A stretch of 64,000 nucleotides of DNA, taken from contig NZ_JAUSWJ010000001.1 in the NCBI RefSeq assembly GCF_030815145.1, positions 1-64,000 of the forward strand, in the 5' to 3' direction. Below are positions 55,509-58,681 of this stretch, piece by piece. The notes under the pieces were generated by a model, which was not told the DNA's origin, did not search any database, and was given only the letters and a program-made list of their open reading frames with translations. The translations under genes and the position numbers were made by a program. The number at the start of each line of letters is the position of its first letter. The first letter of the stretch is position 1. The stretch comes from Kaistia geumhonensis. GTDB lineage: Bacteria > Pseudomonadota > Alphaproteobacteria > Rhizobiales > Kaistiaceae.

Positions 55509-56648
55509 ATGACGGACGCGGCGCGGCTCACGAGCGATCCCGAGACCGATCGGCGGCTGATGGCGGCTGCCCTGCGGCATGGGCGGCGCAACCAGGGCCG
55601 CACCCACCCAGCCCCGTCTGTCGGCGCGCTCGTCGTTCGTTTCGACAGCGGCCAGCCTGTCGTCGTTGGCCGCGGCGTGACATCGCCGGCCGGGCTCACG
55701 CCTGCCACCGTCGCGGCGCTCACCGAGGCCGGCGAGGCAGCGCGGGGCGCAACCTTCTACACGACGCTCGAGCCGATGATGCGCCACGGCGACGGCTATT
55801 CCGAAACCGATGCGTTGATCGCGGCGGGTGTCACGCGCCTCGTCTCCGCGATGGACGACCCCGATCCGCGCCGGACCCGATCCGGCTATGCGCGGCTGCG
55901 CGAGGCGGGGATCGATGTGACCGCCGGCGTGCTCGGCGAGGAGGCGCGCCGCGCCCATGCCGGCTTCGTCAGCGTCGTGCGCGACGGCCGGCCGCATGTC
56001 ACGCTGAAGCTGGCCGTTTCGGCCGACGGCATGATCGGGCGCAAGAGCGGCGAGCGGATGCTCGTTTCCGGGCCCGAGGCCTTTCGCCGCCTGCAGATGT
56101 TGAGGATCGAGAGCGACGCCTCGCTGATCGGCATCGAAACGGCGCTCGTCCACGATCCGAGCCTCGCGGTTCGCGTCCCGGGCCTGCGCCATCTCTCGCC
56201 GATCCGCATCGTGCTCGACGCCGATGCCCGGCTCGCTCCGGGCTCGGCGCTCGTCGCTGGCGCGCACGAGGTGCCGCTCTGGCTGTTCGTCGGCCCGGAA
56301 GCGCCGCCCTCGGCCGTCGCGCGGCTCGAGGAGGCGGGTGTGACCGTCCTGACGGTCGGCACCGGGAGCGGCGGTCTCGATATCAGGGCCGTCATGCGCC
56401 ATCTCGCCGAGCGCGGCATCACGCGGCTCCTGGTCGAGGGCGGCGCCCGCATCGCGGCGAGTTTCGTGGGGCAGGGGCTGGCCGACGAGGTCGTGCTGTT
56501 CCGCGCGCCGGTTGTGATCGGCCCGGATGGCGTGCGGGCGCTCGCCGGAGGAGCCCTCTCCGCCATCGAGCGCAGCCCGCGCTATCGCATCGTCGAGGAC
56601 GTTTCGCTCGGCGAGGACCGCCTGATCCGCTTCGAAAGGACCACCTGA
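55509..56648 (+). CDS. ribD: RibD with degenerate deaminase and intact-looking reductase domain
   Basis: RibD normally performs two steps of riboflavin synthesis: an N-terminal zinc deaminase and a C-terminal NADPH reductase. This 379-residue protein keeps the fold landmarks of the deaminase (HPAPSVGALVV, TLEPMMRHG, DALIAAGVTRLV) but the HAE motif is P65-A66-T67 and the two zinc Cys are M90 and E99, so metal and catalytic Glu are gone. The reductase part is well kept: TLKLAVSADGMIGRKSGE, SDASLIGIETALVHDPSL and RLLVEGGARIAASF. It is two bases from ribE. It probably works as a reductase only, as plant PyrR does. Confidence 0.9.
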   Translation: MTDAARLTSDPETDRRLMAAALRHGRRNQGRTHPAPSVGALVVRFDSGQPVVVGRGVTSPAGLTPATVAALTEAGEAARGATFYTTLEPMMRHGDGYSETDALIAAGVTRLVSAMDDPDPRRTRSGYARLREAGIDVTAGVLGEEARRAHAGFVSVVRDGRPHVTLKLAVSADGMIGRKSGERMLVSGPEAFRRLQMLRIESDASLIGIETALVHDPSLAVRVPGLRHLSPIRIVLDADARLAPGSALVAGAHEVPLWLFVGPEAPPSAVARLEEAGVTVLTVGTGSGGLDIRAVMRHLAERGITRLLVEGGARIAASFVGQGLADEVVLFRAPVVIGPDGVRALAGGALSAIERSPRYRIVEDVSLGEDRLIRFERTT

Positions 56649-56650
56649 CC

Positions 56651-57259
56651 ATGTTCACCGGGATCATCACCGATGTCGGCACCGTGACCGCCGTCGAGCG
56701 GCGCAACGACGTGCACCGCATCACCATCGACAGCGTCTACGACCCGGCGACGATCGCCATCGGCGCCTCGATCGCCTGCGCGGGCGTTTGCCTCACCGTG
56801 ATCTCGCTCGATCCGAAGGCCGAGGGCGGCACGCGTTTCGACGTCGAGGCGGCGCCGGAGACGCTGGCACTCACCGAGGTCGCGAAATGGGACGCCGGCA
56901 CGCGCATCAATCTGGAGCGCTCGCTGAAGATCGGCGACGAGCTCGGCGGCCATATGGTGTCCGGCCATGTGGATGCGCTGGCCACGATCGTCGCCCGCGA
57001 GGATCTCGGCGAGACGACCCGTTTCGTCTTCGAGGTACCGCATGCCTATGCCCGCTTCATCGCCACCAAGGGCTCGGTGGCGCTGGACGGCACGTCGCTC
57101 ACGGTCAACTGGGTCGACGGCGATCGCTTCTCGGTCCTGCTCATCCCGCACACGCTTCAGGCCGACGTGACGACCTGGGGCGCGCGCCAGATCGGCGACC
57201 GCGTGCATCTCGAGGTCGACCAGATGGCCCGCTATGTCGCGCGTCTCAACGAGGCCTGA
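56651..57259 (+). CDS. ribE: Riboflavin synthase alpha chain
   Basis: Riboflavin synthase, 202 residues, makes riboflavin from two lumazine molecules. Both lumazine-binding repeats are visible: MFTGIITDVGTVTAVERRND and ACAGVCLTVISLD in the first; GHMVSGHVDALATIVARED and LDGTSLTVNWVDGDRFSVLL in the second. The ribE symbol follows common usage (ribC in E. coli). It starts two bases after ribD and converges with the cysteine hydrolase gene (12 bases between stops). Confidence 0.96.
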   Translation: MFTGIITDVGTVTAVERRNDVHRITIDSVYDPATIAIGASIACAGVCLTVISLDPKAEGGTRFDVEAAPETLALTEVAKWDAGTRINLERSLKIGDELGGHMVSGHVDALATIVAREDLGETTRFVFEVPHAYARFIATKGSVALDGTSLTVNWVDGDRFSVLLIPHTLQADVTTWGARQIGDRVHLEVDQMARYVARLNEA

Positions 57260-57271
57260 CCGCCGCCGCCT

Positions 57272-57970
57272 TCACAGGGAGACAGGCAGGGGGTTCTCGA
57301 TGAAGCCGATCACCTCGTCCGTCGACATCACGTCGGCGAAGATGGTCACCATGTTGGTGAGCGAGGCGTTGTGGTCGGCGTCGTTCAGCGCCGAGGTCGC
57401 GTCCGAGGTGAAGATCACCCGGTAGTTCATCTGCATCGCGTCGCGGGCCGTCGATTCGCAGCAGCAATTCGTCACGGTGCCCGAGATGATGAGCGTGTCG
57501 ATGCCGCGCTCGGCGAGGATCGACTGCAGCGGCGAGGCGCCCGGCGCGAAGCAGGAATAGCGGTTCTTGTCCATGACGATGTCGCCCTCCGCGACCTCGA
57601 TCCCGGCGTAGATCTCGCGGCCATGGGTGCCGGGGCGCAGGATCGCCTTCACATTGTCCGACCGGCGCTTGTCGCAGAAATAGCCGAGCCAGATGGTCCA
57701 GCGCTCCTCGACATCGGCGTCGAGCGACATGCGCGTGAAGATGTTGAGCCCGCCCCTGGCGCGCATCGCGGACGAGATGCGGTTGATGTTGTCGACCGTG
57801 TCGCGCGAAAGCGGCACCTCCAGCTCGGCTCCCTCCTCGAGGAACGCGTTCTGCATGTCGATCACGAGATGCGCCGTCCGGGCCGGATCGATATCCGAGA
57901 AGACGTGATCGACGCCGCGCCAGGCGCGCACGGTCTCCAGCGCCTGGTCGATATTCACGATGTGCGGCAT
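57272..57970 (-). CDS. Isochorismatase-family cysteine hydrolase
   Basis: A 232-residue hydrolase with the Asp-Lys-Cys triad of the isochorismatase fold: Asp in HLVIDMQNAFL, Lys in IVMDKNRYSCFAPG, and Cys in GTVTNCCCESTARDAM. ATG 57970 was taken as start because MPHIVNIDQALETV reads well; an upstream start at 57994 is less likely. Relatives include biuret, ureidoacrylate and nicotinamide amidohydrolases, so the substrate is open. It stands on the opposite strand inside the riboflavin cluster, between ribE and ribH. Confidence 0.88.
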   Translation of the reverse strand: MPHIVNIDQALETVRAWRGVDHVFSDIDPARTAHLVIDMQNAFLEEGAELEVPLSRDTVDNINRISSAMRARGGLNIFTRMSLDADVEERWTIWLGYFCDKRRSDNVKAILRPGTHGREIYAGIEVAEGDIVMDKNRYSCFAPGASPLQSILAERGIDTLIISGTVTNCCCESTARDAMQMNYRVIFTSDATSALNDADHNASLTNMVTIFADVMSTDEVIGFIENPLPVSL

Positions 57971-58228: not shown

Positions 58229-58681
58229 ATGAGCGACGCTGCCCCCCATCTCCTCGTCATCGAGGCCCGCTTCTACGAGGATATCGCCGATGCGCTCTTC
58301 GAGGGCGCGAGCCAGGCCCTCACGAAGGCCGGCGCCACCTTCGAGCGCATCTCCGTTCCGGGCGTGCTGGAGATTCCCGCCGCGCTTTCGATGGCGCTGG
58401 CGGCCATGGAGGACGGCGAGGCCGATTACGACGGCTTCGTCGTGCTCGGCACTGTGATCCGCGGCGAGACCACGCATTACGACATCGTCGCCAACGAATC
58501 GGCCCGCGCCATCATGGACATGGCGGTGATCGAGGCGCTGGCCGTCGGCAACGGCATCCTGACGGTCGAGAACGACGAGCAGGCCTGGGCCCGCGCCAAG
58601 GCGAGCGACAAGAACAAGGGTGGCGCGGCGGCCGACGCGGCGCTGACCATGATCGCGCTCCGCAAGAAATTCGGGCTCTGA
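58229..58681 (+). CDS. ribH: 6,7-dimethyl-8-ribityllumazine synthase
   Basis: Lumazine synthase, 150 residues. It condenses the RibD product with a four-carbon phosphate to give lumazine. Diagnostic segments: [53 protein letters not shown] and [11 protein letters not shown]. The 258-base gap upstream, shared with the divergent hydrolase gene, shows no firm promoter. nusB starts one base after the stop, so the pair is co-transcribed. Confidence 0.96.

Follow-up and report, generated by a model that had tools for sequence, protein, structure and literature searches.

The presence of RibD in a bacterium is commonly taken as a sign that it synthesizes its own riboflavin. In plants, PyrR is a reductase with an inactive deaminase domain and PyrD is a separate RibD-type deaminase, and to our knowledge, the riboflavin-pathway deaminase of archaea is still without an assignment. 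Reductases that act without a fused deaminase are also found in fungi and archaea (RIB7 and MjRED). These enzymes are reported to reduce their substrate before deamination and carry a Thr or Asn at a position where bacterial RibD reductases have a Lys favoring the deaminated substrate (PMC3631187). Furthermore, a variant of the pathway has been described for Sinorhizobium and Brucella, in which BrbF, a formamidase of the creatininase family, is essential for riboflavin and RibD is bifunctional; in that report, no enzyme is assigned to the step preceding BrbF, and the gene context of brbF includes CobW (PMC9478397).

The RibD studied here is encoded in the window, i.e., the whole analyzed stretch of 64,000 nucleotides from Kaistia geumhonensis, by an open reading frame at 55509-56648 (+ strand) that starts with ATG and encodes 379 amino acids. 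As a whole, this protein is recognized by the RibD model TIGR00326 (218.6 bits against a cut-off of 156.35), and its reductase part matches the Pfam model RibD_C with 120.7 bits, while the N-terminal domain reaches only 19.6 bits with PF00383, which is below the Pfam cut-off of 25. Alignment to the solved RibD structures of Escherichia coli and Bacillus subtilis confirmed what the original prediction had read from this gene, namely that the HAE motif is replaced by P65-A66-T67 (55701-55709) and both zinc-binding Cys by M90 and E99. It also revealed that the loss goes further, since the Asn of the NPxVG motif is replaced by Ala35 (55611-55613) and the His of the PCxH motif by R92, which lies within the same segment as M90 and E99 (55776-55805). 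In total, the substitutions are Asn35 to Ala, His65 to Pro, Glu67 to Thr, Cys90 to Met, His92 to Arg, and Cys99 to Glu, so that neither the zinc ligands nor the catalytic Glu of the deaminase (HAE, PCxH...C) are left. The fold of the N-terminal domain (codons 12-145; 55542-55943, + strand) is nevertheless predicted to be intact, as the AlphaFold model has a mean pLDDT of 90.6, with values of 86-97 per block across residues 11-160. The reductase domain (codons 160-377; 55986-56639, + strand) has retained K167, D216, and E310-G311-G312, in agreement with the earlier reading that its motifs are kept; K167 and E310 are the equivalents of B. subtilis Lys151 and Glu290. With RibD architecture, a dead deaminase site, and intact reductase residues, the classification of this protein as PyrR-like and reductase-only is well supported at the level of sequence.

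In order to determine the extent of this loss, RibD was compared across 14 Kaistia genomes, comprising that of K. geumhonensis (G000; a single contig of 4.59 Mb) and 13 others, each of which yielded one full-length match devoid of internal stops. Asn35, Cys90, His92, and Cys99 are lost in all 14, whereas they are intact in all 16 non-Kaistia genomes whose RibD was aligned (5 sister genera and 11 genomes representing other families of the order; G023, the 17th, yielded no locus and was left out). The same positions are intact in each of 70 additional named loci, some of which come from those same genomes, and lost in 10 of 10 named Kaistia loci, which largely represent the same species and are therefore not independent. 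The loss is thus old and genus-wide, as the original prediction had proposed to check by surveying relatives, and a sequencing error, which it had named as a possible refutation, is ruled out. The residues that replace the zinc ligands vary among Kaistia species (M, V, A, T, P, or S at position 90; E, D, A, V, or S at position 99). The HAE motif has decayed less uniformly, being complete in 5 of the 14 proteins and damaged in 9, with His alone lost in 2, Glu alone in 5, and both in 2 (the window and L010). The simplest history is that the zinc site and the Asn were lost once, before Kaistia radiated, and that HAE then decayed slowly. RibD from the sister genera Prosthecomicrobium and Bauldia, which share the operon order and are up to 63% identical to the Kaistia protein, differ from it in having retained every deaminase residue. 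Among the matches listed in a literature search that mostly extended to journals other than subscription journals, none had a title referring to a bacterial RibD with a dead deaminase.

A whole genus therefore encodes a protein that is recognized by the RibD model but lacks the deaminase residues. As the residues for the first step are lost and those for the second are kept (K167, D216, and E310-G311-G312 in 14/14 Kaistia genomes), the missing step must be covered by another, still unproven enzyme or by uptake of the vitamin. If the pathway runs, Kaistia must hold an unrecognized deaminase, which might help with the archaeal one; if it does not run, RibD-based predictions of vitamin independence are wrong for this genus. 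The Lys equivalent K167 is present in all 14 Kaistia proteins, which distinguishes them from RIB7 and MjRED with their Thr or Asn. This suggests that deamination still precedes reduction in Kaistia and, consequently, that the missing activity should act on the diaminopyrimidine nucleotide DARoPP.

The explanation that we favor, albeit with modest confidence, is that the pathway is still running and that the deamination has been taken over by an enzyme belonging to neither the RibD nor the PF00383 family. According to this view, RibD would have lost its deaminase activity in the Kaistia ancestor, with this half of the protein retained only as a structural domain, and would now, like plant PyrR, act as a reductase only. 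A BrbF-type formamidase would yield DARoPP, the replacement enzyme would strip off its 2-amino group, and RibD would reduce the deaminated product, after which RibH and RibE would complete the synthesis of riboflavin.

The genes for the last steps are found next to ribD: ribE, encoding riboflavin synthase (56651-57259, + strand; above the NCBIfam cut-off), and ribH, encoding lumazine synthase (58256-58681, + strand; family match). Selection on these genes was estimated as dN/dS by the Nei-Gojobori method in close Kaistia pairs. The reductase domain of RibD (0.07-0.11), ribE (0.06-0.13 in five pairs), and ribH (0.035-0.11 in four pairs) gave values similar to those of the comparison genes nusB (0.014-0.11) and thiL (0.095-0.13). 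The purifying selection on the reductase domain, ribE, ribH, and the probable brbF described below indicates that the pathway is probably still in operation. An isochorismatase-family hydrolase is encoded in the window between ribE and ribH, in the opposite orientation (57272-57970, - strand). Among the Kaistia loci covering this place, the insertion occurs only in the window and in L068-L070, which rules it out as a general replacement deaminase. Within the regions examined, no new gene common to Kaistia was found within the rib operon or in the neighborhood of ribN or of the gene for RibBA.

RibBA itself has a dead GTP cyclohydrolase II half, the zinc-binding Cys being gone in 14/14 Kaistia genomes and 5/5 sister genera (G000:C1:2163906-2164358, L186, for K. 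geumhonensis; L171-L197 for its relatives), and among 30 aligned RibBA loci, these Cys are kept only in G019, G022, and G023. The RibB half has kept its DRENEGDL motif in all 14 Kaistia genomes. Because the sister genera combine the dead half with an intact RibD, it is unusable as a sign of auxotrophy. Moreover, it need not break the pathway in Kaistia, given the BrbF route of Sinorhizobium and Brucella. Another GTP cyclohydrolase II-like protein, which is only distantly similar (58 bits; G000:C1:3696270-3696719, in L210), was observed in 13 of the 14 Kaistia genomes, with G015 as the only sister-genus genome to encode it.

A PF02633 protein is present in 14/14 Kaistia genomes, 5/5 sister genera, and 27 of the 31 genomes searched; since it is absent from the remaining four (G020, G021, G027, and G029), BrbF would not be universal in the order. 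The brbF-like protein common to all 14 Kaistia genomes (13 aligned together, G010 separately) belongs to the creatininase family and groups with the Rhizobium copy encoded beside CobW, to which it is 49% identical, compared to 33% for a second copy in K. geumhonensis. CobW was found near the brbF-like locus in 9 of the 14 Kaistia genomes (G001-G005, G007, G008, G010, and G011). It was not found at the K. geumhonensis locus, while the regions from G006, G009, and G013 may end too early to include it. By homology and partial context, the Kaistia protein is probably BrbF. Hence, Kaistia would resemble the Sinorhizobium and Brucella variant in combining BrbF with the lack of a working cyclohydrolase II half, but, with RibD described as bifunctional in that variant (PMC9478397), would add a second step without an assigned enzyme. 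It should be noted that the occurrence of CobW at only 9 of 14 loci and the four genomes without PF02633 count against the explanation that we favor.

The strongest rival, which we regard as possible but clearly the less probable reading, is that Kaistia has lost de novo riboflavin synthesis and imports the vitamin through a riboswitch-controlled RibN-like transporter, the remaining rib genes being relics or repurposed. An FMN riboswitch was identified in 13/14 Kaistia genomes and 0/5 sister genera (18/31 genomes overall), although absences, including that in G004, may be misses, with only 73 candidates scored in large genomes. In the ten Kaistia regions examined, the riboswitch is followed by an EamA transporter gene (in K. 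geumhonensis, the riboswitch is at G000:C1:2108157-2108306, - strand; L163:1501-1650), whose product is 39-41% identical to the one behind the riboswitch in G023 and which we name RibN by resemblance. The presence of this riboswitch-controlled gene, lacking in the sister genera, is a point against a running pathway, and a RibBA with a dead cyclohydrolase II half would likewise fit import. However, that half is just as dead in sister genera with intact RibD, and purifying selection acts throughout Kaistia on the reductase domain, ribE, ribH, and the brbF-like gene. Furthermore, RibN in alphaproteobacteria usually occurs alongside full synthesis (PMC4418817), so that the RibN-like gene would permit auxotrophy but does not show it. 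No report on the riboflavin needs of Kaistia was among the matches listed in our literature search, which mostly covered journals other than subscription journals. With import as a live rival, the original prediction was too strong in stating that this bacterium must have a separate deaminase or a new enzyme for the step.

For a running pathway, the split between PyrR and PyrD in plants would suggest a separate RibD-type deaminase as a partner. Kaistia RibD shares with PyrR its architecture, the lost zinc site, and the kept reductase, but its loss is independent and confined to one bacterial genus, and no partner equivalent to PyrD was found. A search of the K. geumhonensis genome for a second RibD returned, besides the known one, only a match at chance level (E 0.88) and two proteins of the PF00383 family, so that no second RibD or RibD-type deaminase was found in this genome. 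PF00383 itself gave four hits there: the dead RibD, TadA, Cdd, and one nucleoside-deaminase-like protein. Of 60 PF00383 loci analyzed, 57 could be sorted, while L282, L286, and L317 showed no HAE/PCxxC pattern in our search and were left unclassified. Within Kaistia, Cdd was found in 14/14 genomes, while 9 have a third deaminase and 5 a long Cdd-like enzyme. As this sorting did not separate TadA from the nucleoside-deaminase-like proteins, TadA was judged by another alignment, which included it from 13 of 14 Kaistia genomes (the exception, G006, is 92% complete and gave no match) and 5/5 sister genera; Cdd was aligned from 4/5 sister genera. Thus, no PF00383 deaminase in this set is both specific to Kaistia and common to the whole genus, TadA and Cdd being the only ones shared, which speaks against a genus-wide replacement from this family. 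Of the original prediction, the PyrR-like RibD therefore stands, whereas its dedicated partner, sought as a RibD-type protein or a free protein of the cytidine-deaminase fold, was not found; its other suggestion, a new enzyme for this step, gains weight from the empty search.

Considerably less probable than import is that Cdd or TadA, or different enzymes of the cytidine-deaminase fold in different species, deaminate the intermediate in addition to their housekeeping role. The near-complete occurrence of both in Kaistia is in line with this, as is G001, for which a PF00383 search across 31 genomes gave matches for TadA and Cdd only. However, both proteins look ordinary, and both also occur in sister genera whose RibD is intact. 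The weakest alternative, deamination by the altered N-terminal domain of RibD through another mechanism, is consistent with its predicted fold and with the low dN/dS of the closest pairs (0.072 and 0.085), indicative of purifying selection, but we consider it very improbable, as both zinc-binding Cys are gone, the catalytic Glu is gone in 7/14, the substitutes differ between species, and the domain evolves about 3 times faster than the reductase domain in L072-L075. In the three pairs within L072-L075, dN/dS was 0.22-0.26 for the N-terminal and 0.07-0.09 for the C-terminal domain, while the pair L069/L070 gave 0.085 and 0.069. The domain is not relaxed in the pair of the window and L068 (0.072 against 0.111), which is a point against our favored explanation. 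Distant pairs are near saturation, and their medians (0.33 and 0.24 for the N- and C-terminal domains in Kaistia, 0.21 and 0.22 in the sister genera) have to be read with care.

As for a replacement from neither the RibD nor the PF00383 family, DARoPP has a ring that is a substituted isocytosine. Enzymes near the 8-oxoguanine deaminase family deaminate isocytosine (PMC6186785). A guanine-deaminase model, run over 18 genomes (13 Kaistia genomes, with G006 left out, and 5 sister genera), revealed amidohydrolases beside the brbF-like gene. In K. geumhonensis, three 8-oxoguanine deaminase-family amidohydrolases are encoded there in tandem (G000:C1:3328778-3333042, L247), and two copies of this genome exceed the cut-off of 532 bits for 8-oxoguanine deaminase, with 588.8 and 615.6 bits. 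The lower of these scores, obtained with NF006055, belongs to candidate C (C1:3,328,778-3,330,124, - strand). Two paralogs, A and C, are of interest here: 13 Kaistia sequences of C cluster in one clade (support 99/99), while 10 Kaistia copies of A group with four sister-genus genes. Candidate C occurs in 13/14 Kaistia genomes at an identity of at least 80%, while identity does not exceed 71% in the 17 other genomes, and its metal-site residues are kept in 13/13. It adjoins the brbF-like gene in 12 Kaistia genomes, and in G007, both are located at contig ends. C is present and A absent in G003, G010, and G011. dN/dS is 0.07-0.16 for C compared to 0.02-0.05 for A.

This paralog is our best single candidate for the missing step, although the assignment is tentative and rather doubtful. 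A sole replacement would have to accompany every dead RibD, and G012 has neither A nor C in an unbroken stretch, yet its RibD is equally dead, which also weighs against our favored explanation. Moreover, the locus may be catabolic, given the adjoining ABC transporter, which we take from its sequences to be of the dipeptide type. On the drawn (midpoint) rooting, the split between A and C is older than that between Kaistia and its sister genera; C may therefore not have arisen together with the loss in RibD, and the link may be a coincidence within one genus. If candidate C did replace the step of the cytidine-deaminase fold, a prospect we likewise rate as unlikely, an unrelated member of the amidohydrolase superfamily, descended from the 8-oxoguanine/isocytosine deaminases and encoded beside BrbF, would constitute a new class of riboflavin-pathway deaminase. 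The middle one of the three tandem amidohydrolases of K. geumhonensis (copy B) groups only with a copy from G008.
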